Shown: one piece after another, positions 14,043 through 25,593 of the stretch
Position numbering within the stretch: the first letter of the stretch is position 1
Layout: each line of letters starts with the position of its first letter
Origin: Acidobacteriota bacterium
Lineage (GTDB): Bacteria; Acidobacteriota; Vicinamibacteria; Vicinamibacterales; CAVVIG01
DNA length: 35,006 nt
Assembly (NCBI GenBank): GCA_025358945.1
Contig: JANYHS010000003.1
Span: forward strand, 1 to 35,006
Direction: 5' to 3'
The notes under the pieces: model-generated
The model's input: only the letters and a program-made list of their open reading frames with translations
The model's database searches: none
Told to the model about the DNA's origin: nothing
Program-made: the position numbers and the translations under genes

Positions 14043-15766
14043 AAAGTATTTATCTCGTTCCCGTGTTGAGTGGCGCCCAGCTCCTGAAGCCGGTCGATTT
14101 CCCGTTGAATAGCCGCCCGTTCGCGTTCCCACCTGAGCCGCTTAAGCGCGCGCGCACAGGCGGCGGGCGGGGCTTGGGAAACGTCGGTTGCTGCGATGCT
14201 CGTGACCAGTTGGGCGTTCACCGTACTTAGACGCTGCAATAGCGTTGATGGTAAGTGCTCCACCGGTTCATCGTGCAGGCTCCGGGCCATTTCCAGGATA
14301 TGGCGTCCGGCCAATTCTTCGAGATCGTCGTCGTCCAGCCCGGCGAGCGCCTCCAGCGCCACGCTGGTATTGTGGATCAGTCCCCAGATCAGTGCTTTTT
14401 CCGCGTGTTTGAGGTGCCCGACCGTGGGCATCTCCCGAGTGGTGACGACCGTTTTCTTGTTGACGGCCGCTTTACGGATTTCAGCCCGCACCACGTCTTC
14501 TGTAATCCTGGCTTTATGAGCGATCCGGTCCGCGAACTGGTCCCGCGCGGCCGCGTCCGGAATCCGCGCCGCAACCGTGAGCATTTTGCCGAGAAACTGA
14601 CGCCGACTGTCGTCGTGGTTCAAGTCGAGCCCTTCGGCCGCCTGATCCAATAAGTATTCCAGATACGGCCTCGACGACTTCAACCGGGCGCGATAGGTGT
14701 CGCCGCCGTTCCGCCTGATGAAGGTATCGGGATCTTCGCCCTTGTCCAGCACGAGGACGTTGACGTCAAACCCTTCTGCGACCAGAAGTTCACACGATCG
14801 CACGGCCGCGCCAAGGCCTGCCGCGTCGGGATCGAAGCTGAGGACGACTTTCGACGTGAAACGGCGGAGCAGTTGCGCCTGCTGCGGCGTCAGCGCCGTC
14901 CCGCAGGAGGCCACCGCCGGCGCCGCTTCGGACTGGAACACCTGCGCGAAATCGAAGTATCCCTCGACGAGCACGGCAAAACCGACTTTCCGGATCTGCC
15001 CCTTCGTCAGGCTCAGCCCGTAGAGTGTGCGCCCTTTGGAGTAAATCGGCGTTTCGGGCGAATTCAGGTATTTCGGACCGCCCTGGTCCGCGTCCATCTG
15101 CCGGCCGCCGAAGGCGATCACCGAGCCGGTGTCGCGGCAGATCGGCACCATCAGCCGGTTGCGGAAGCGATCGACCACTTCGCCGCTCTCACGCTGCACG
15201 ATCAGCCCGCTTTGCAGTAAAACGCCCTGCGCGAACCCCTGTTTCAGCAGACGCGCCTTCAGCCCGTCGCGCGAATTGGGCGCGAAGCCGAGGCCAAGCT
15301 CGTCGATCGTCTTCTGCGTGACGCCGCGCTCCGCCAGTTGCGCGCGGGCCCGTCCGCCGGCGGGCGCCGCCAGCTGTTCCTTGAAGTACGCCGCCGCAAT
15401 CTCGTGCGCCTTGAGCAGTCCCTCACGCAGCGCCGAATCACGCCGGGCATCGTCTCCTGTGCCATCGACCGGTTCAGGCAGCGAGACGCCGAATTTCGAC
15501 GCGAGCATCCGCACCGCGTCCTGGAATCCGACTTTTTCGTGCAGCTCGAGAAACTTGAACACGTCGCCGCCGACGCCACAGCCGAAGCAGTGGAAGAACC
15601 CCTTCTCGGGGTGCACGTGAAACGACGGCGTCTTCTCGTTGTGGAACGGACAGTTGCCTTTGTACGATGTGCCCGCGCGCTTCAGCGGCACGTACTCCTG
15701 CACGACCTGCAGGATGTTGGCCTGCAGCCGGAGGTCGTCGATGAACTGCTGCGGGAAGAGGCCCAC
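13994..15766 (-). CDS. dnaG: DnaG primase
   Basis: Synthesises RNA primers at the replication fork. It has 590 residues. The CHC2 zinc-binding domain is at the N-terminus, with ligands C39, H42, C60 and C63 ([11 protein letters not shown] and HCFGCG). The primase core has the motif KGRTLYGL and the TOPRIM Glu in VLVEGYFDF, then SFDPDAAG with the metal-binding Asp residues. The C-terminal helicase-binding part is poorly conserved, as usual. Translation starts at GTG 15766, whose G is the last base of the mutS2 stop codon (TAGTG), so the two are coupled. Its 3' end overlaps rpoD by 49 bases. Confidence 0.96.
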
Positions 15767-18183
15767 TAGTCCTTCAACTCCACAACGGTGACGCCGCCGC
15801 CGCCCTGGTTGGGTGGCGCCGTCGCGAATCGTGCGACGAGCGGATGCTGCGTCAGAAAGCCGGTGAGGGCGCGTTTCAGCTGACCCGTGCCGTAGCCGTG
15901 GATCAGGCGGATGACGCGCTGATCGGTCAGCAGCGACTCGTCCAGGAACCGTTCCGCGCGCGTGATGGCTTCATCGACCGTGCAGCCGATTACGTTCAGG
16001 TCGGACGGCGTGCCTTCGCGCGGTTGCAGTTCCACGTTCACGGTCACGCGGGCCGCGGGCGCCTGGCCGCCGATCACGCGCAGATCGCGGATGCTGGCGC
16101 GCATGCGCTTGCCGCGCACGTCGAGGTCGGCCGTGCCGTCGTGAACGGAGGTGACCGTCGCTTCCAGGCCGAGACCGCCGACGATGACTCGGCTGCCGAC
16201 GACGACGGCGGTCATCGCGGATTGTGGATTGCGGATTGCGGATTGCGGATTGGCGATTGGAGATTGGAGATTGTCAATTGTGGATTGCGCGTCGCCCGCG
16301 ATCACGCGCGCCGCGATCGCGTCGACGGCGGCGCGCGCCTCGCTGCGCGCCGTTCCTGTGTCGCCGGTGGAGACCAGCCGCGGCCCGCGCGCGATGGCGT
16401 CCGCTTTCGCCTTCAGCGCGGCAATCACCCCGTCGATTTCCTTGCGCGCCTCGCGGACCTGCGCGTTCAGCTCTTCGTTCAGCCGCCGCTTGAACGTCTC
16501 CTCGCGCTGGTGCAGGCCGTCTTCGCGGTGCTGCATCCGCGTCTCCGCCGCCTGCAGCGTCTCGCGCTCGCGGGTTGCCAGGCGATGCTCGTGTTCGAGC
16601 GCGCGCATGTCGTGGTCGATCTTCGCCAGGTGCTCGTGGAGCTGTGCGTCACGCGCACTCAGGTTGTCGCGCGCGGCGGCGACCACCGATGGGTTCAATC
16701 CGAGCCGGCCGGCGATTTCGAGTGCGAGGCTGCGCCCCGGGCTGCCGTAAATCAACTGGTAGGTCGGGGCAAACGTCTCGCTGTTGAACCCGAACGCAGC
16801 GCTGGCCACGCCCGCCGTCGTCGAGGCGTAGGTCTTGAGCTGATCGTAGTGGCTGGTGGCCATCACGGTCGCGCCGCGCTGGCGGAAGTGATCGACGATC
16901 GCCACGCCGAGTGCGCCACCTTCGACGGGATCGGTGCCCGATCCCACTTCGTCGAGCAGCACGAGCGACGGCGTCACCATCCCGCGGTCCATCGCCGCGA
17001 TGTTCATGATGTGCGCCGAGAACGTGCTGAGGCTCGCTTCGATCGACTGCTCGTCGCCGATGTCTGCGAACAGCGATCGGAACACCGGCAGACGCGATCC
17101 CTGCTCGGCGGGGATGCGCAGCCCCGTCTGCGCCATCATCGCGAGTAATCCGGCGGTCTTCAACGCGACGGTCTTGCCGCCCGTGTTCGGTCCCGTGACC
17201 AGCAGAATCGTCGCCGGCGGGATGATCTTGATCGTCACCGCCACCGGATTCTTCAGCAGCGGATGCCGCGCCGCCTGCAGTTCGAACGCGCCATCGGTCG
17301 AGAGCACGGGCTCGATGCCGTCTATGGACTCCGAGAAGCGCGCGCGTCCCTGCAGCACGTCGATGTCGGTGGCTGCGTCAATGGTCCGCTGCAGATCGTC
17401 CGGGCGCTGGCGGAACGCGTCGGTCAGCTCCAGCAGGATGCGCCGGACCTCTTCGTGCTCCTGCTCCTCGAGCGCGACGATGTCGTTGTTGATCTCGACC
17501 GTGCTGAGCGGCTCGAGAAACAGGCTGGCGCCGCTGGTCGAGGCGCCGTGCACGATGCCGGGGATGCCGCTGCGATGCTCGGCTTTCACCAGCAGCACGT
17601 AGCGCCCGTTGCGCTCGGAGACGACCTGATCCTGCAGGTATTTCGCCGTCTCCTTGCCGCGCAGATACGATTCGAGCGTCGTGCGCAAGCGCGAGCGCTG
17701 CTTGCGCAGGCGATCGCGGATGATCCGCAGCTCCGGGCTCGCATGATCCACGACCTCGCCCGACGGATCGATCTTCTCGCGCACCTGCGCCGTCTCGCCC
17801 TTGAACGACGCGGCGCCGCCGGTGGCGGCCTCGAGCAGCGGATACGATCCCGCGGCGCGGCGGATGCTGGCGCGCGCCTCGTCGACCGAATCGAGGAAGG
17901 TCGCGAGTGCGAGCAGCCGCAGCGACTCGAGCGCGCGCCCCTCGACCGCCAGCGACGCCAGGATCTGGGCCAGGTCGCTCGACGCGCGCAGCGGGAACAC
18001 ACCGTGCGCCGCGACGAAGCGCACCGTCTCGGTCGTCGCCGCCTGCCACTGCGCGACCTGCTGCGGATCGGTTGACGGCCGCAGCCGCGACAGACGGTCG
18101 GCGCCCATCGGCGTCAGCGCGAAACCGGTGACGGTCTCGACGATCCGATCGAATTCGAGGGCCCGCAGGGCGCTTGGTTGCAT
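15766..18183 (-). CDS. mutS2: MutS2, ATPase and Smr-domain endonuclease
   Basis: MutS-family ATPase without a mismatch-recognition domain. Homologues suppress recombination or rescue collided ribosomes through the C-terminal Smr nuclease. It has 805 residues. The core MutS lever region is followed by Walker A GPNTGGKT at 331-338 and Walker B LVLLDEVGSGTDP at 407-419. A coiled coil follows (about 500-620), then a KOW-like stretch (about 660-710), and a Smr domain with LNVIGCTVDEA and the HGYGTG loop. An unusual insert at about residues 632-657 (IDNLQSPIANPQ and following) is the translation of a 7-base tandem repeat. It starts at ATG 18183. It leads a block with dnaG, rpoD and a tRNA. Confidence 0.95.
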   Translation of the reverse strand: MQPSALRALEFDRIVETVTGFALTPMGADRLSRLRPSTDPQQVAQWQAATTETVRFVAAHGVFPLRASSDLAQILASLAVEGRALESLRLLALATFLDSVDEARASIRRAAGSYPLLEAATGGAASFKGETAQVREKIDPSGEVVDHASPELRIIRDRLRKQRSRLRTTLESYLRGKETAKYLQDQVVSERNGRYVLLVKAEHRSGIPGIVHGASTSGASLFLEPLSTVEINNDIVALEEQEHEEVRRILLELTDAFRQRPDDLQRTIDAATDIDVLQGRARFSESIDGIEPVLSTDGAFELQAARHPLLKNPVAVTIKIIPPATILLVTGPNTGGKTVALKTAGLLAMMAQTGLRIPAEQGSRLPVFRSLFADIGDEQSIEASLSTFSAHIMNIAAMDRGMVTPSLVLLDEVGSGTDPVEGGALGVAIVDHFRQRGATVMATSHYDQLKTYASTTAGVASAAFGFNSETFAPTYQLIYGSPGRSLALEIAGRLGLNPSVVAAARDNLSARDAQLHEHLAKIDHDMRALEHEHRLATRERETLQAAETRMQHREDGLHQREETFKRRLNEELNAQVREARKEIDGVIAALKAKADAIARGPRLVSTGDTGTARSEARAAVDAIAARVIAGDAQSTIDNLQSPIANPQSAIRNPQSAMTAVVVGSRVIVGGLGLEATVTSVHDGTADLDVRGKRMRASIRDLRVIGGQAPAARVTVNVELQPREGTPSDLNVIGCTVDEAITRAERFLDESLLTDQRVIRLIHGYGTGQLKRALTGFLTQHPLVARFATAPPNQGGGGVTVVELKD
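16221..16290. repeat. Ten 7-base attgNNN units inside mutS2
   Basis: Ten uninterrupted 7-mers begin with attg: attgtgg, attgcgg three times, attggcg, attggag twice, attgtca, attgtgg and attgcgc. Ten units of 7 bases give 70 bases, so the reading frame is kept only through its flanks. It encodes a Pro, Asn, Gln and Ser-rich linker between the coiled coil and the C-terminal domains of MutS2, where an insertion is tolerable. Confidence 0.85.
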
Positions 18184-18202: not shown

Positions 18203-18625
18203 CTACCGTACTGCCCTTAGCGTCGCTATAAGTGGTTGATGAGCGACGCGATGCTGGCCGCTCCGAACCCGTTGTCGATGTTTACGGCGGAGACCTCCCA
18301 GGCACAGCGGGTGTTTGGCAGGAAAAGGCGGTCCGCTCTTCGGGTCAGCGCGCAGAAACTGCGACCGCTGTGTCGTCAGCCTCTCGATCAGGCCAGATTT
18401 CCCCGATCGGTTGTTGGCACGGTGCGCGTGTGGATGTTGGCATCGCAGGACGACGCGGACCAAGACGAATAGCCCGGGCTTCCCCGTACGAGCTATGTAC
18501 GACCGGAGCACGGCGTTCATGCGCGTCTGGTAGCGCGGTCCAGTTTGTTTGAACCAATCGAGCACGTCCTCATCGACACGCAGGGAGATGGCACTTGATC
18601 GCTTTCTTGTAGGTTGCTCGTCCAC
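18203..18625 (-). CDS. BrnA-like antitoxin, orphan and probably with a decayed C-terminus
   Basis: From GTG 18625 the frame encodes 140 residues. The first 45 contain the BrnA/CopG-type antitoxin pattern: SSAISLRVDEDVLDWF, then GPRYQTRMNAVLRSYI. A good Shine-Dalgarno, AGGAG, lies 8 bases before the GTG, so the start is well supported. BrnA proteins normally end soon after the LRSYI helix. Here the frame runs on for about 95 residues of unlike, Arg- and His-rich sequence, overlapping an out-of-frame larB fragment, so the natural end is probably lost. No BrnT toxin gene is recognisable upstream, where the partner normally lies. It is a remnant or orphan of a type II toxin-antitoxin pair. Confidence 0.55.
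   Translation of the reverse strand: MDEQPTRKRSSAISLRVDEDVLDWFKQTGPRYQTRMNAVLRSYIARTGKPGLFVLVRVVLRCQHPHAHRANNRSGKSGLIERLTTQRSQFLRADPKSGPPFPAKHPLCLGGLRRKHRQRVRSGQHRVAHQPLIATLRAVR
18226..18327 (-). pseudogene. Second copy of the larB 3' end
   Basis: In this frame the minus strand reads CAWEVSAVNIDNGFGAA and then SIASLINHL followed by a stop. The intact larB at 24832 ends with VNIDNGFGAASIASLINHL and a stop. By hand alignment about 63 of 83 bases match, with many differences at third codon positions, and weak similarity continues some 14 bases past the stop codon. No larB sequence is seen upstream of about 18327. It lies on the same strand as intact larB, 6.6 kb away. Confidence 0.8.
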
Positions 18626-18783
18626 GGCGATTGCTCCTATGCGCTGAAATGATGCGGCGGAGGATCTATCCGTCGCTTCTGAGACGAGCGCGCGAATGAC
18701 CCAAGTGCTAAACAGCACGATCCATTCGATGAGGACCGCACCTCGCCAAGGCTTGACGCCAGGCAGGCTATAGTGTTCCCACC

Positions 18784-19245
18784 GTGCGCCGCCTCGGCAA
18801 GCTGACCCTCATTCTGGCGATCCTGACCGGCGCCGCCGCCGGCATCGGCGCCTTCACCTTCCGGTATGGCGAAGGCCTGAGCTACTTCTCCACCGATCCC
18901 CGTGCGTGCAAGAACTGTCACGTGATGAACGATCAGTACGCCTCGTGGACCCACGGACCGCATCACGCGGTGGCGCGGTGCGTGGACTGTCACCTGCCGC
19001 ACGAGTTCATCCCGAAGTACCTGGCCAAGGCGGACAACGGCTACCGCCATTCGAAGGGGTTCACCTTCATGGATTTCCACGATCCCATCATGATTACGCC
19101 GCGCAATTCGCGCATCCTGCAGGACAACTGTCTGCGCTGCCACGGCGACTTCGTCCACGACATCGTGCGCGGCAGCACGACGCACGAAGAGGCTGTCTCG
19201 TGCGTCCATTGCCATCGCGGTGTCGGCCATGGTGTGCGCTTCTAA
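18784..19245 (+). CDS. nrfH: NrfH-type tetrahaem cytochrome c, quinol-oxidising subunit
   Basis: NapC/NirT-family membrane cytochrome that takes electrons from menaquinol and passes them to NrfA. It has 153 residues. An uncleaved N-terminal membrane anchor spans about residues 7-25. Four CXXCH haem sites follow: CKNCH 42-46, CVDCH 66-70, CLRCH 116-120 and CVHCH 140-144. This is the NrfH count and length. The GTG start at 18784 has no convincing ribosome binding site. It ends 16 bases before nrfA, so the two form an operon. Confidence 0.94.
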
Positions 19246-19261
19246 TGCGAGAGAGGGAGGC

Positions 19262-20761
19262 ATGAGCGATTCTTTTTCAAACACCAGGCGCCGCCGGGCG
19301 CTGCTGCTGGGCGGCATCGCCGGAGTCTTTGCGGTGATGGTCTTCCTGATCACGGGGCTGCTGACGTCCATCTTTCAGCGGAAGCAGGAAGCCAAGAACC
19401 CGTACGTGCGACTGGTCGAGGTCAACGAGGAAACGACCGATCCGGCAGCGTGGGGCGTCAACTGGGCGCGCGAATACGACGACTACAAGCGCACAACCGA
19501 GTCGACCAAGACGCGGTTCGGTGGATCGGAGACGCTGCCTGCGGAAAAGGCGGCGGCAAACCCATGGCTGACCCGCATGTTTGCCGGCTACGCCTTCGCG
19601 ATCGATTATCGGGATCGGCGGGGACACGCCTACATGCTGCAGGACCAGGACCAGACACGGCGGGTAACCGAGAAGAAGCAGCCCGGCTCGTGCCTGCAGT
19701 GCCACACCGCGGTCATGCCGACCTACCGGCGTCTCGGCGGCGGCGATGTCTTCAAAGGTTTCGAGGCGCTCGGCCGGCTCTCGTACCAAGAAGCGCGTGC
19801 CGAGGTCGTCAAGACCGGGTCGTCGAACCCGATCGCCGGAGGTACGCAGGCCACCTTCCAGCACGCGGACGGCGCTCACCCTGTCGCGTGCGTGGACTGC
19901 CACGATCCGCAGAGCATGGAGCTGCGCGTGACGCGCCCGGGATTCATCCGCGGCATCCAGGCGCTCGCGGACGGTACGGCGCCGACGCCGCACCTCGAGA
20001 GCATCGAACGCTGGCGCGCCGGCGGCCGCGCCAAGCCGTACGATCCCAACGTCGACGCGTCGCGTCAGGAAATGCGCTCCTATGTCTGCGGGCAATGCCA
20101 CGTGGAGTACTACTGCGGGCCGAAGACCACGCTGTTCTACCCCTGGAACAACGGCCTGAAGGTGGACCAGATCGAGAGCTACTACGACCAGTACAAATTT
20201 CCCGACGGGCACCGCTTCTACGACTGGGCCCACGCCGAGACCGGCGCCGAGGTGCTCAAGGCGCAGCACCCCGAGTTCGAGACCTGGAGCCAGGGCATCC
20301 ATGCGCGCAGCGGCGTCTCCTGCGCCGACTGTCACATGCCGTACAAGCGCGAGGGCGCGATGAAGGTGTCGGATCACTGGGTGAGAAGCCCGCTGACTAA
20401 TATCTCCCGCGCCTGCCAGGTCTGCCACCCGTATTCAGAGACCGAGATTCAGGCGCGCGTCGGCGCGATTCAGGAACGCACCCACCAGCTGCTCGATCGC
20501 TCAGCGACGGCGCTGACGGCCCTGCTCGATGCAGTCGTCGCGGCAAAGAAGAGCGGCGTTTCGGAGGCGCAGCTGGCCGACGTACTCGCGCTGCAGCGCA
20601 AGGCGCAGTGGCGGCTGGACTTCGTCGCGGCGGAAAACTCGATGGGCTTTCACGCGCCGCAAGAAACGGCGCGGGTGCTGGCCGAGGCAATCGACTACGC
20701 CCGGCAGGGCCAGCTGGCGGCGAGCACGCGGTCGAGCGGCGCGCGGCCAGCGGCACGGTAG
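19262..20761 (+). CDS. nrfA: NrfA, pentahaem cytochrome c nitrite reductase (CXXCH-type first haem)
   Basis: Periplasmic enzyme that reduces nitrite to ammonium with six electrons. It has 499 residues from ATG 19262, which follows GAGAGGGAGGC. A membrane-spanning signal anchor lies at about residues 12-36. Haem sites are CLQCH 144-148, CVDCH 210-214, CGQCH 276-280, CADCH 354-358 and CQVCH 385-389. Calcium and active-site residues of the family are present: E282-Y283 after the third haem, and K333, Q335 and H336 in LKAQHPE. The RGHAY segment expected near the active-site Arg is also there. The first haem has His where E. coli NrfA has Lys (CWSCK), as in the CXXCH subgroup. Paired with nrfH. 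Confidence 0.95.
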
Positions 20762-20805
20762 ATTGTTTTTCACGTGTGTGCGCGACGTCGCGTCCGGGCT
20801 TGAGC

Positions 20806-22290
20806 TCAGAACTGAATCACGTTCTCCAGGTACGCGAACTTCAAGGTGTCGCCGCTGAACGCGTGCCGGACCACGTCGCCGCCGCGCAGTACGCCGACAT
20901 AGCCGTTGATCGACCAATGCCGGGCAATCGAACGGTCGGCCGAGCCCTCAATCATTGTGCCGAGCCGGGTCTGGCCGTTCGAGACCCGGCCGGCATAGCC
21001 GAAGTAGGTGCCGGTCGATTGCGTCGCTCCGCTGCCCGCGTACCAGCGATCGGCAGCGCTGACGAGGTCGAGCGCGTGCAACTCCATCCGAAGCGTCAGC
21101 TTCGGCGAGGGACGCAGCACCGCCTGCGCGAACGCGTCGTTGAGGTTCATCAGGCTGTACACGGTCGAGAGCGAGTACTTCCTGACGGTGGGCATCACCG
21201 GGAAATAGGTCTCATGACGGGTGTCTGCCGGGGCGTCGTCGCCCGAGGCACGGAAGATCCCGGCGCGAATCCATGGACGCCAGGGCAGCGCGGTCCACTG
21301 ATAGCCGGCCTCGCCGGCCGCCGACCAGGCGCGGTGCGTCTGCGCATACCACGATCCGGTCTGACCGGCCGCCCAGCCGACCACATCCCACCGGCCCGGA
21401 CCGGCCGGGTACTCACCCACCACACTGGTGCCAAACGTCTGGATCTGGACATCGACCGACGAGGCGGTGAGGCCGGAGTTGTCCGGGCGGGCCGCCACTG
21501 CCCGCGTGTCGTCGTACTGGTTGGCGAACAGTTGCCATTCCGTGTGGCGAAGCGCGGCGCCGGGCTTCAGCGTGAGAGCGCCGGTGAACAAGTCGACGTG
21601 CGTCATCTCTGCGTTCGCCGCGTTCTCGAATCCACCCTGGGTCGGGCGCACGGCCGACACCGTCGCGTGCCACCGCGGCCGATCGACGTCCACCCGGACG
21701 CCGTCAAACGCCCGCTGATACAACGACCACTCGAATTCGCCTATGAGGCGCGAGTCGAGCCGCAGCCGCTTGACCCCTTCGATCGCCGCGTCGCCCGATG
21801 CTGACTCCGCGCCCGAGGTGTAACCGAACCGTCCCACCTGGATCACGGTGCCAGGGATGACGTGCTTCAGTCGCGCGTTGAGATAGCGCAGGTACAGTTG
21901 ATGGCTGTCGGTCTGGCCGCTCGCGGCGAAGTACAAGGAGCCAGACCCAAGCGCACCCGGCCCGGTCGCGTTGGTGGGCAGGTTGCCGAACTGGACGTAT
22001 TGCAGCGCTCCGGCCAAATCGATGGCCGACGTTCGATGCTCGACGCCGACAAACAGCCGGTTGGCGACGTCGGTGTAGTCGGGATCGCCGCCGCCCGGTT
22101 TGGGCTCGAAGTAGTGCCAGGACTCGACCCGGGTCCAATCGCGCACCTGCCAGGTCGTGTTCGGGGCAGCAGCCGGCGCCGCGGGAGGTGGCGCCGGTGG
22201 TTGCCCCAACGTGACACGCGCGTGAAGCAACATCAGCGCGGCGGCGAATTGCGCGACGTGCAACGGCGGCCGGCTCGTGTGGATCAACAT
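20806..22290 (-). CDS. Outer-membrane beta-barrel porin, alginate-export family
   Basis: From ATG 22290 it has 494 residues. The N-terminus is a signal peptide (hydrophobic FAAALMLLHA, cleavage near LGQ), then a Pro and Ala-rich spacer. The rest has amphipathic strands typical of outer-membrane barrels. Family-like features include VGRFGYTSGAE, LIGEFEWSLYQRAFDGVRV and DNSGL near a large loop. The final residue is Phe (ENVIQF), the usual barrel-insertion signal. Alginate-export-like (PF13372) proteins are general porins as often as polysaccharide exporters. No alginate genes are nearby, so passage of a small anion or metal for the adjacent redox proteins is more likely, but this is inference. 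It converges with nrfA and diverges from the cytochrome-oxidase pair. Confidence 0.82.
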   Translation of the reverse strand: MLIHTSRPPLHVAQFAAALMLLHARVTLGQPPAPPPAAPAAAPNTTWQVRDWTRVESWHYFEPKPGGGDPDYTDVANRLFVGVEHRTSAIDLAGALQYVQFGNLPTNATGPGALGSGSLYFAASGQTDSHQLYLRYLNARLKHVIPGTVIQVGRFGYTSGAESASGDAAIEGVKRLRLDSRLIGEFEWSLYQRAFDGVRVDVDRPRWHATVSAVRPTQGGFENAANAEMTHVDLFTGALTLKPGAALRHTEWQLFANQYDDTRAVAARPDNSGLTASSVDVQIQTFGTSVVGEYPAGPGRWDVVGWAAGQTGSWYAQTHRAWSAAGEAGYQWTALPWRPWIRAGIFRASGDDAPADTRHETYFPVMPTVRKYSLSTVYSLMNLNDAFAQAVLRPSPKLTLRMELHALDLVSAADRWYAGSGATQSTGTYFGYAGRVSNGQTRLGTMIEGSADRSIARHWSINGYVGVLRGGDVVRHAFSGDTLKFAYLENVIQF

Positions 22291-22324
22291 GATCTCAGTG
22301 TGAGGGCATTCGTGGAAGTGCACC

Positions 22325-22340
22325 TATGACCGCCGTCATA
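22325..22340. promoter_or_regulatory. Inverted repeat TATGAC-N4-GTCATA before the porin gene
   Basis: A perfect 6-bp inverted repeat with a 4-base centre (cgcc), 35 bases upstream of the porin start. The half-site TGAC with N4 spacing is the form bound by FNR/DNR/NnrR-type regulators (consensus near TTGAC-N4-GTCAA). Binding is not shown, and one flanking base differs from that consensus on each side. Confidence 0.45.
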
Positions 22341-22437
22341 CTGCGCGCGGTCAGATCGATCTCGACAACCGAGGCGTCCGGATTGCGTTTGCGGGCCTCG
22401 ACCAGCAATCAGTTGTGGGCGGCCGAGCGGCATTGAG

Positions 22438-22453
22438 GTGAACAAATATTCAC
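22438..22453. promoter_or_regulatory. Inverted repeat GTGAA-N6-TTCAC before the cytochrome-oxidase operon
   Basis: A perfect 5-bp inverted repeat with an AT-rich centre (caaata) in an otherwise GC-rich region, 101 bases upstream of the cytochrome c start. It is followed by an A-run (ataaaaaa). It could be an operator or the core of a promoter. The half-sites are shorter than the CRP consensus and the spacing does not fit TGTGA-N6-TCACA exactly. The rest of the 263-base divergent gap (22291-22553) shows no recognised site. Confidence 0.4.
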
Positions 22454-22553
22454 ATAAAAAAGGGCGTTTCGGCATGGTCATTGCCCTCTCTCCCACAAGG
22501 TCGCTGTGTTTGCCGGATTCTCGGCAGTCCGCAACGGCCGAAGGGAGCTCTGA

Positions 22554-22973
22554 ATGGTCAGGTATGTTCTCGTCGCTATCGCGAGCGTCATGCTGCTGGC
22601 AGGCGCCGCTCGCGTCGCAGGAGCGCAGCAAAGAGTGGAGAAGGCGCCGATCAAACCGACGCCGGTCGGCGACGCCGGGAAGATGTTCGACACCTACTGC
22701 GCCGTATGCCACGGCAAGGAAGGCAAGGGCGACGGCCCGGCAGCGAAATCGCTCGCGAAGGTGCCCGCGGACCTCACGAAGATTTCGGCTCGGAACAACG
22801 GCACGTTCCCGGAAACCAGGGTCAAGCGCTACATCGAGGGCCTGGACGAAGTGGCGGCACACGGCACGCGCGACATGCCGATGTGGGGCGATCTGTTCAG
22901 ATCGCTCAATCGCGACACGGCCCAACTGCGCATCGCCGGGCTGTCGGACTACCTGAAAGCTATGCAAAAGTAG
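22554..22973 (+). CDS. Monohaem class I cytochrome c
   Basis: It has 139 residues. A signal peptide (MVRYVLVAIASVMLLAG) ends near AGAQQ. The single haem site is CAVCH at 49-53, followed by GKEGKGDGPAA. The distal Met ligand is expected in DMPMWGDLF (M108 or M110). It is a small soluble or periplasmic electron carrier. The ATG is preceded by AAGGGAG. It ends 4 bases before a multicopper oxidase, which it may feed or drain; the pairing suggests direct electron exchange, but the direction is unknown. Confidence 0.9.
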   Translation: MVRYVLVAIASVMLLAGAARVAGAQQRVEKAPIKPTPVGDAGKMFDTYCAVCHGKEGKGDGPAAKSLAKVPADLTKISARNNGTFPETRVKRYIEGLDEVAAHGTRDMPMWGDLFRSLNRDTAQLRIAGLSDYLKAMQK

Positions 22974-22977
22974 GAGG

Positions 22978-24345
22978 ATGACCCGTCGGCAGCTTCTCGC
23001 ATTGACGTGCTTCTGGACTTCGGCGCGTGCATCCGGCCTCGGCCAGCACGCGCCGAACGTCGTCCCACGCGCGCCGATCGCCCCGCAGCTGTTGGTCGGA
23101 AACGCCGACATCACACTCCGCATCGCCGAGCTGACGCTGGAGCTCGCGCCCCGCCGCACGATCAGAACGCTCGCCTACAACGGCCAGGTGCCCGGCCCCC
23201 TGCTGCGCGCCAGGCGCGGGACGCCCCTGACCGTCGACGTCTGGAACGACACGACAGAGCCCGACATCGTGCACTGGCACGGGTTTCACATTCCGTCGGA
23301 CGTGGACGGCGCGTACGAGGAGGGCACGCCGGGTGTTCCGCCCAACAGCCGCCGGCGCTACGTGTTCACGCCCGATCCGGCCGGCACCCGGTGGTACCAC
23401 AGCCACACGACGGCGGACCGGAATCTGAAGAAGAGCACCTACACCGGGCAGTTCGGCATGTTCGTGGTGGAGGACGGTGACGATCCCGGCGCCTACGATC
23501 TGGAAGTGCCGATCCTGCTGCATGAATGGGATCCGCGCTTCACGTCCGATGGCCCGATGGACGTGGAGTTTCGCGCATTCTCGATCAACGGCAAGATGCT
23601 CGGGGCCGGCGAGCCGATCCGCGTGCGGCGGTCACAGCGCGTGTTGTTTCGCATCCTCAACGCCAGTGCGACGATGCCGCACCGCCTCGCGCTGCCGGGG
23701 CATCTGCTCAACGTCATCGCGCTCGACGGCAACGCCGTGGCGACGCCGCGACAGGTTCCCTCGGTGGATCTCGCTCCGGGCGAGCGCGTGGACGCGATCG
23801 TCGAGATGAATCGGCCGGGCGTCTGGATCCTCGGCGAGCTGCGACCGGAACACCGCGCGGCCGGCATGGGCATCGTCGTCGAATATGCGGGGGAGCAAGG
23901 GCCACCACGGTGGCTGCCCGTGCCGGATTTCGCCTGGAGCTACGCGGCGTTCGGCGGATCAGCCGCGGTGCCCGAGCCCGACGGGCGGCAGACGCTGGTG
24001 TTTCGCGCCGCGGGCGACGGGCATCACTGGACCATCAACGGCAAGTCGTACCCGAAAACCGATCCGATCGTGGTCCGCGCGAACCGGCGCTACCGCTGGA
24101 CCTTCGACAACCAGAGCGCCAACGACCATCCGGTCCACCTGCACCGGCACCGGTTCGAGATCGTGCGGTTCGACGGGCGGCCGATGTCCGGCGTCTGGAA
24201 GGACGTCGTCGTCGTGCCGGCGTGGAAACAGGTGGAGGTGGACGTGCCCACCACCCAGCCCGGGCTGTCGCTGTTTCACTGCCATCAGCAGTTCCACATG
24301 GACATGGGCTTCATGGCGATGATGCGCTACACGGAACAAGAGTAA
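22978..24345 (+). CDS. Tat-exported three-domain multicopper oxidase (laccase-like)
   Basis: It has 455 residues. The N-terminus TRRQLLALT is a twin-arginine-like signal, fitting export of a folded copper enzyme. All four copper motifs are present: HWHGFH (99-104), WYHSH (139-143), HPVHLHRH (about 382-389) and HCHQQFHMDMGFM near the C-terminus, with the type 1 Cys at about 435. It therefore has full type 1 and trinuclear sites and is not a two-domain nitrite reductase. Likely substrates are phenols or metal ions such as Cu(I), Mn(II) or Fe(II). It shares a transcript with the cytochrome c gene. The purine run GAGG abuts the ATG directly, an unusually close spacing. Confidence 0.93.
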   Translation: MTRRQLLALTCFWTSARASGLGQHAPNVVPRAPIAPQLLVGNADITLRIAELTLELAPRRTIRTLAYNGQVPGPLLRARRGTPLTVDVWNDTTEPDIVHWHGFHIPSDVDGAYEEGTPGVPPNSRRRYVFTPDPAGTRWYHSHTTADRNLKKSTYTGQFGMFVVEDGDDPGAYDLEVPILLHEWDPRFTSDGPMDVEFRAFSINGKMLGAGEPIRVRRSQRVLFRILNASATMPHRLALPGHLLNVIALDGNAVATPRQVPSVDLAPGERVDAIVEMNRPGVWILGELRPEHRAAGMGIVVEYAGEQGPPRWLPVPDFAWSYAAFGGSAAVPEPDGRQTLVFRAAGDGHHWTINGKSYPKTDPIVVRANRRYRWTFDNQSANDHPVHLHRHRFEIVRFDGRPMSGVWKDVVVVPAWKQVEVDVPTTQPGLSLFHCHQQFHMDMGFMAMMRYTEQE

Positions 24346-24450: not shown

Positions 24451-24792
24451 GGTATGTACGAGGTGATCGGTCAGCGCGTATGCTGACTGCGACGGCCGCG
24501 AATCGACGATGAGGTACTTCGCGGACGCGAGATCGGCATCCGGCTGGTGTTAGGCGCCCCGACGGCAGGCGTATTGACGATGTTCGTGGGACAGGCGCTG
24601 AGACTTGGCGCGGTCGGCGCCGGCTGCGGACTCGTGGCCGCGTTGGCGATGACACATCTCATGTCATCCCTGTTGTTTCATGTCAGCGCCGCCGATTCCG
24701 TGACCTACGCGATGGTCACATCCGCGTTGATCGGCGCAACGCTGGTGGCAGCTACGTCCCTGCCCGGCGGGCGACGCGGATCCCGACGCTGA
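24451..24792 (+). pseudogene. C-terminal remnant of an FtsX/MacB-type (ADOP) ABC permease
   Basis: The frame reads GMYEVIGQRVC, an in-frame stop at 24484-24486, then LRGREIGIRLVLGA and a membrane segment ending ATSLPGG. This follows the C-terminal pattern of MacB/ADOP permeases (GLYGV, then REIGIRMALGA, two membrane helices, slLFxVsaxD, and P-x-R-R-A). The upstream 650 or so residues are absent and the frame is interrupted. No ATPase partner is near. The 105 bases before it, after the oxidase stop, show nothing recognisable. Confidence 0.7.
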
Positions 24793-24831
24793 GGTCTTGC
24801 GCGCGTCTCTGGCCGCAGTCCTTCGCGTTCG

Positions 24832-25593
24832 CTACAAGTGATTGATCAGCGACGCGATCGAGGCGGCCCCGAAGCCGTTATCGATGTTCACCACCGACAC
24901 TCCGGAGGCGCAGCTGTTGAGCATGCCGAGCAGCGCGGCGATACCGCCAAAACTGGCGCCGTAGCCGATGCTGGTCGGCACGGCGATCACGGGGGCGCTC
25001 ACCAGGCCGGCGACGACGCTGGGCAGGGCGCCTTCCATGCCGGCGACGACGATGATGACGCGCGCGGCGTCGAGGCGCTCGCGTTCCCCCAGCAACCGGT
25101 GCAGGCCGGCGACGCCGACGTCGTACAGCCGCGTGACTTCGTTGCCCATCAGCTCGGCCGTTCGCGCCGCCTCTTCCGCAACCGGCAGGTCCGAGGTGCC
25201 CGCGGCGGCGACGATGATTGTGCCGTTGCCCGGGCTCACGTCCTTCTGGCGCAAGGTGATCAGGCCCGCGTCGGCGTGATACGTCGCAGCGGGGACTTTC
25301 TCGCGCACCGCGGTGTAGGCCGCTTCTGTGGCGCGCGTCACCAGCAGCGTCGAGCCGCGTTTGACGATTTCCGCAGCGATCGCGGCGATTTGGGTGGGCG
25401 TTTTGCCCAGGCCGAGGATCACCTCCGGAAAACCCTGGCGCACGGCGCGATGATGGTCGACCCGAGCGAACCCCAGATCCTCGTACGGCCGGGCGCGCAT
25501 CGCCTCGAGCAGCCGTTGTTTGGCGGTGCCAGGATCGACTTCCCCCCGCGCCACCTGATCGATAAAATCCTCAAGCTGTTTGTTTGACGTCAT
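24832..25593 (-). CDS. larB: LarB, P2CMN synthase (NaAD carboxylase)
   Basis: Carboxylates and hydrolyses nicotinic acid adenine dinucleotide to pyridinium-3,5-biscarboxylate mononucleotide, the first step to the nickel-pincer cofactor of lactate racemase and relatives. It has 253 residues. The C-terminal PurE-like domain carries VAAAGTSDLPVAEEAA, VVAGMEGALPSVVAGLV and VPTSIGYGASFGGIAALL. The start is ATG 25593; the same frame stays open for 1.3 kb upstream, but that part is antisense to the glycosyltransferase gene. No larC or larE is in the window. The 57-base gap to the divergent gene includes an IR, GGTGG-N5-CCACC. Its last codons are duplicated at 18226. Confidence 0.92.
   Translation of the reverse strand: MTSNKQLEDFIDQVARGEVDPGTAKQRLLEAMRARPYEDLGFARVDHHRAVRQGFPEVILGLGKTPTQIAAIAAEIVKRGSTLLVTRATEAAYTAVREKVPAATYHADAGLITLRQKDVSPGNGTIIVAAAGTSDLPVAEEAARTAELMGNEVTRLYDVGVAGLHRLLGERERLDAARVIIVVAGMEGALPSVVAGLVSAPVIAVPTSIGYGASFGGIAALLGMLNSCASGVSVVNIDNGFGAASIASLINHL

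Follow-up and report, generated by a model that had tools for sequence, protein, structure and literature searches.

In a 35,006-nt stretch of Acidobacteriota DNA (contig JANYHS010000003.1, positions 1 to 35,006, of assembly GCA_025358945.1; hereafter the window), genes for the nitrite ammonification pair NrfH and NrfA, an outer-membrane porin, a cytochrome c and a multicopper oxidase (MCO) lie side by side at 18784–24345. The conserved entities in this neighbourhood are two modules, the first composed of nrfHA and the porin and the second of the cytochrome c and the MCO, and the 6.6-kb block that holds both is an insertion between larB and mutS2. We regard it as an even prospect that the neighbourhood combines two accessory nitrogen-oxide-respiration modules, brought to the larB-mutS2 junction as one block. 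An initial annotation had predicted the five genes and their orientations (nrfA and the porin convergent, the porin and the cytochrome c divergent); open reading frames (ORFs), translations and family scans bear this out, all five genes being intact:

18784–19245, plus strand: nrfH, tetrahaem quinol dehydrogenase (TIGR03153, 171.3 bits against a cut-off of 134.2; match to PDB 2j7a_C)
19262–20761, plus strand: nrfA, pentahaem nitrite reductase of the CXXCH type with a hydrophobic N-terminal stretch (PF02335, 411.6 bits), the ATG at 19262 being the likely start
20806–22323, minus strand: outer-membrane porin of the Alginate_exp family (PF13372, 103.4 bits against a gathering score of 25.2)
22554–22973, plus strand: exported monohaem cytochrome c with one CXXCH motif (CAVCH) and a conserved DMPMWG in a 17-row alignment (PF00034, 25 bits, cut-off 21)
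22978–24345, plus strand: three-domain MCO with a Tat-like signal (TRRQLLAL) and an axial Phe at the type 1 copper (PF07732, PF00394 and PF07731, all above cut-off)

The distribution of these genes was followed across 162 genomes of the order, the window's own included. NrfA is present in 22 of them, the PF13372-family porin in 35 and a close MCO in 15. The initial annotation had also raised the five genes as a possible unit; however, they are found together in only 1/162 genomes, and NrfA and the close MCO co-occur in two genomes where 2.0 are expected (Fisher p=1), so a conserved five-gene unit was ruled out. The two shared genomes are the window's own, in which NrfA and the MCO are 2.2 kb apart, and G104, in which they are on different contigs. 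Among the 11 genomes reached via the closest MCO loci, none had a real NrfA, the one match being fragmentary (E=4e-4).

The second module holds together on its own. Of the 15 genomes in the order with the MCO, 12 have a cytochrome c gene 8–95 bp from it, and the three without an adjacent cytochrome c are those with the most distant MCOs; in the window, the gap between the two genes is 4 bp. The 12 pairs comprise eight cytochrome-first tandem and four convergent arrangements, and at a further locus outside this set (L081) the order is reversed, with the MCO first and the cytochrome c second. This shifting order with adjacency kept argues for the cytochrome c and MCO as a working pair.

The closest relatives of the MCO in named records are from Acidobacteriota. 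Alignment revealed that the type 1 and trinuclear copper ligands are kept in at least 75 of 78 rows, while the type 1 axial position is occupied by Phe in 74 and Leu in two of the 76 readable rows (two gaps). The MCO shares three cupredoxin domains and all copper ligands with laccase-like three-domain MCOs such as the Thermus thermophilus laccase (2xu9) and a Pseudomonas MCO (6vow), and laccases are the best fold matches among those listed for its AlphaFold2 model (pLDDT 86; VIA-align Z about 40), although identity to the laccase-like matches listed is only 26–30 %. Unlike these enzymes, it has Phe in place of Met at the type 1 axial site and a conserved cytochrome c neighbour. It also has no Met-rich segment, with one Met across residues 285–350; a passage of PMC11111587 counts such segments among the features of prokaryotic metallo-oxidases. 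Assignment as CueO or CopA was rejected on account of this absence and of scores far below the NCBIfam cut-offs (128 vs 525 bits and 138 vs 479 bits, respectively), and assignment as NirK was likewise rejected (TIGR02376, 38.5 bits, cut-off 296.3).

The pair is linked to nitrogen-oxide genes. NosZ scored above the TIGR04246 cut-off in 34/162 genomes, and it is present in 8 of the 12 genomes with the pair vs 26 of the other 150 (Fisher p=0.0005). In five of the eight paired genomes with NosZ, nosZ lies 8.0–17.0 kb from an MCO, for which the probability by chance is 2e-9 to 6e-8 under a uniform model of 5-Mb genomes that disregards the clustering of respiratory genes, with two of the genome pairs (G017/G026 and G040/G103) sharing genera. 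As the paired genomes are few and related, these p-values overstate independence. Inspection of individual loci revealed an HAO-like multihaem protein, napA and napB directly upstream of the pair in G135, the same three genes between the pair and the porin in G106, and, following the MCO in G040, genes for a RIC-like hemerythrin and a Crp/Fnr protein. A search of genome contigs for MCO homologues returned 75 loci, 10 of which have an adjoining cytochrome c; NosZ, NapA, HAO-like or RIC-like genes were found within 10 kb of 4/10 paired vs 1/65 unpaired loci (p=0.0008), a comparison that is biased because the markers were chosen after some of the paired loci had been read. This count excludes matches to a cytochrome b, a radical SAM protein and further proteins linked to nos. 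The nosZ test is the fairer of the two as it applies a public family to all 162 genomes, and the 10-locus set is not independent of the order-wide set since 9 of its 10 loci are from the same genomes.

The window's own genome carries a nosZ-like gene on contig C257 (L340, 5040–6869, minus strand) that scores 580 bits against the TIGR04244 cut-off of 625 and may encode a divergent NosZ. Its surroundings were read by eye as ABC-type, Crp/Fnr and radical SAM genes.

Turning to the first module, NrfH meets the NCBIfam equivalog TIGR03153, and NrfA has five haem motifs (CLQCH, CVDCH, CGQCH, CADCH and CQVCH). The distal-pocket Arg, Tyr and His are present when the protein is aligned to the W. succinogenes NrfA structure 1fs9 (KAQHP and HVEYY), following the residue numbering of W. 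succinogenes NrfA. The roles of these residues in the pocket are named in sections of PMC12285233. Haem 1 is bound by CLQCH, without the Lys of the classical CXXCK NrfA, and the cut-offs for NF008339 (275 vs 595 bits) and TIGR03152 (211 vs 692.5 bits) were not reached; hence, the protein was not filed as a classical NrfA. Its sequence places it in the known CXXCH clade, which excerpts of PMC10716430 describe as monophyletic, poorly characterized and dominant in soils, with ~90 % of soil nrfA placements, and which is also covered in part of PMC12285233. CXXCH at haem 1 was found in all 22 NrfA of the order and in all 28 usable ORFs from 29 NrfA loci of other families in the phylum, where NrfA (E≤1e-60) was detected in 89/396 sampled genomes.

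On the NrfA tree of the order, the window protein and its G083 counterpart make up a deep clade, separate from the remaining 20 (support 100/100), and both have longer haem 1-to-haem 3 stretches than these. Many NrfA of other families in the phylum match the window NrfA at 57–64 %, so this nrfHA is not the usual type of its order. In G083, the source of the order's closest NrfA, the gene directly upstream of nrfHA encodes a copper protein of the plastocyanin/azurin type (PF00127; L271, 9538–10017, plus strand). NosZ is also over-represented in genomes with NrfA (13/22 vs 21/140, p=2e-5).

The porin recurs beside nrfA. Eight of the 22 NrfA genomes also have a PF13372-family porin, and in six the porin lies 51–244 bp from nrfA, in two orientations; this adjacency requires at least three changes on the NrfA tree. 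Co-occurrence by genome is weak (8/22 vs 27/140, p=0.09), and of the 29 NrfA loci in the phylum's other families, every one has nrfH but none a porin of this family within 1.5 kb. At 30 porin loci, we examined up to 1.5 kb on either side. Neighbours included nrfA at six loci, napA/napB at three (L242–L244; G106, G107 and G097), narK-type transporter genes at two (G103 and G089), a nitrate reductase delta-like gene at one and a Crp/Fnr gene at some. Porin and MCO share a contig in four genomes (G106, G099, G135 and G103), at a distance of 9–30 kb. This genomic context points to nitrate or nitrite, instead of alginate, as the porin substrate. The family as a whole is not nitrogen-bound, as a second porin group of the same family is found beside nadA, sodB and moeA (L252, L254 and L256–L258). 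In G135, a second, distinct three-domain MCO gene (L265, 14561–16063, minus strand) adjoins the porin and a RIC/YtfE gene.

Both modules sit in one block at a locus that is closed in most family relatives. In 22 of 26 such relatives, no more than 1 kb separates larB and mutS2, and in three of these the gap contains a single small ORF; the exceptions are three genomes in which the genes are at contig ends and G008, which does not show the adjacency. The gap is 132 bp in G001, of the same genus, vs 6.6 kb in the window. The borders and the remaining features of the block are as follows:

15766–18183, minus strand: mutS2, the native left border (PF00488 and PF01713), which adjoins larB in relatives
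18223–18313, minus strand: larB 3′-end remnant comprising the last 29 codons including the stop, with 76 % identity to the intact larB end
18494–18679, minus strand: orphan BrnA antitoxin domain (PF14384, 61 bits, cut-off 26), its BrnT partner not having been searched for separately
24547–24792, plus strand: partial FtsX/MacB-type permease (C-terminus) at the block's right end (PF02687, 22 bits, just below the cut-off of 25.5), probably gene debris
24832–25593, minus strand: intact larB, the native right border (NF033503 LarB, 295 bits against a cut-off of 175)

The BrnA domain lies within an ORF (18203–18718) at the left end of the block. Flanking the block is a direct repeat of 91-bp larB 3′ ends (18223–18313, on the mutS2 side, and 24829–24919) that are 76 % identical. 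The two ends differ at 22 bases over 29 codons, and the 11 differences in the last 20 codons are all synonymous; the larB from which the remnant stems was thus under selection once the two had diverged, and this mostly synonymous divergence points to a source elsewhere. The intact larB 3′ end has 86 % identity to that of G001 (locus L280) and is closer to the relatives than the remnant is in 23 of 24 comparisons (one tie). We infer that the block arrived by recombination at larB with DNA of another bacterium. No integrase was recognized among the ORFs of the block. Composition shows no sign of transfer, as the GC content of the block (65.4 %) is close to that of the rest of the window (64.5 %) and its GC3 resembles that of its neighbours; a foreign base composition was thus ruled out.

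As to how the modules might work, electrons from quinol would pass via NrfH to NrfA for the reduction of nitrite to ammonium, and the porin would pass nitrite or nitrate across the outer membrane. In the second module, the MCO would receive single electrons from the periplasmic cytochrome c at its type 1 copper and pass them on to its trinuclear cluster, with O2, reduced to water, the most likely acceptor. The pair would then be a soluble cytochrome c oxidase, serving to remove O2 or to drain electrons where nitrogen-oxide enzymes run at low oxygen, and the two modules may work jointly in the cell. A word search of open-licence papers found neither a cytochrome c–MCO pair described in a nos, nap or nrf neighbourhood nor a PF13372 porin described alongside nrfHA. 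Two accessory partners can be sought near the nitrogen-oxide genes of Acidobacteriota, namely, the porin (by nrfHA, narK and napAB) and the nosZ-tied cytochrome c–MCO pair. If the MCO does feed on cytochrome c, it would give soil bacteria that ammonify nitrate or reduce N2O one more periplasmic outlet for electrons.

Several observations weigh against reading the block as a composite of two nitrogen-oxide-respiration modules. NrfA has no association with the MCO (p=1); the paired genomes are few, four being from one genus and three from another; and no nitrogen-oxide gene was seen near the pair in 4/12 genomes (G104, G011, G110 and G024), three of which have the pair on a short contig. The enzymes acting on nitrogen oxides function in the absence of O2, on which an MCO normally depends. 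Furthermore, no FNR-like site was found upstream of nrfH or in the porin/cytochrome promoter region, and co-regulation is therefore unsupported; the window contains 12 weak matches to FNR-like boxes (as many were seen in 1 of 100 shuffles), none of them upstream of the five genes, and a sigma-70 promoter scan found none where 0.7 were expected. Chance juxtaposition is the main structural rival. The block would then be a shuffle in which nrfHA and the cytochrome c–MCO pair became adjacent with no functional tie, as the occurrence of the five genes together in 1/162 genomes, the chance-level overlap of NrfA and MCO and the gene debris in the block (BrnA, the FtsX fragment and the larB remnant) would suggest. 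We hold this to be a real possibility, though one that falls short of even; each module is found independently in nitrogen-oxide neighbourhoods, so their meeting does not look like that of a random pair of functions.

The main functional rival is copper handling, which we consider unlikely. Here, the MCO would oxidize periplasmic Cu(I) and the pair would lie near nosZ because NosZ needs copper loading, the nrfHA neighbourhood being incidental. The linkage to nosZ, which encodes a copper enzyme, the Tat-like signal, as in CueO, and the nearest NCBIfam names, CopA (138 bits) and CueO (128 bits), are consistent with this role; however, these scores are far under the cut-offs (479 and 525), the MCO is without a Met-rich segment, Cu(I) oxidation requires no cytochrome c partner, and the neighbouring napAB, RIC-like gene and nrfHA do not encode copper enzymes. 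It is distinctly improbable, in our estimation, that the conserved pair of Acidobacteriota is an undescribed copper enzyme system of nitrogen-oxide respiration in which a cytochrome c-fed laccase-type MCO, recruited to sites beside nos, nap or nrf genes, either uses its trinuclear cluster to reduce N2O, NO or nitrite or protects the reductases of these compounds from O2. Very unlikely, too, is an MCO whose acceptor is a nitrogen oxide, be it N2O, NO or nitrite, in place of O2, the electrons coming from the cytochrome c. The nos, nap, nrf and RIC-like genes linked to the pair would fit such an enzyme, and an MCO of Pyrobaculum aerophilum reportedly has N2O reductase activity (a reference listed in PMC11111587), but the trinuclear cluster is the canonical one of O2-reducing MCOs, the protein is not NirK (TIGR02376, 38 bits, cut-off 296) and most paired genomes already have NosZ.

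The initial annotation had proposed that the exported oxidase, cytochrome and porin move substrate or electrons across the envelope, for example for the oxidation of Mn(II) or another metal coupled to nitrite reduction. Part of this intuition stands, in that the porin recurs by nitrite and nitrate genes and the cytochrome c–MCO pair is both conserved and associated, in statistical terms, with nitrogen-oxide respiration. Metal oxidation and extracellular electron transfer have no support, and we find them scarcely credible: the five genes do not travel together, the block has no multihaem outer-membrane conduit, most cytochrome c–MCO pairs have no porin beside them, and the MCO lacks a Met-rich segment. 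What favours metal oxidation is the position of the cytochrome c gene beside the MCO gene, which resembles mofC-mofA of Leptothrix as described in parts of PMC5566968.

Two known systems invite comparison with the composite block favoured here. The ncgABC-nirK operon of Nitrosomonas europaea combines an MCO and two cytochromes c in a nitrite-related setting; the block differs in having one cytochrome and no nirK. It also has no mofB-type isomerase, unlike the mofABC/ompB clusters of Leptothrix and Geobacter, with which the likeness is one of gene arrangement: passages of PMC5566968 describe an MCO gene adjoining a cytochrome c gene in those clusters, as here.

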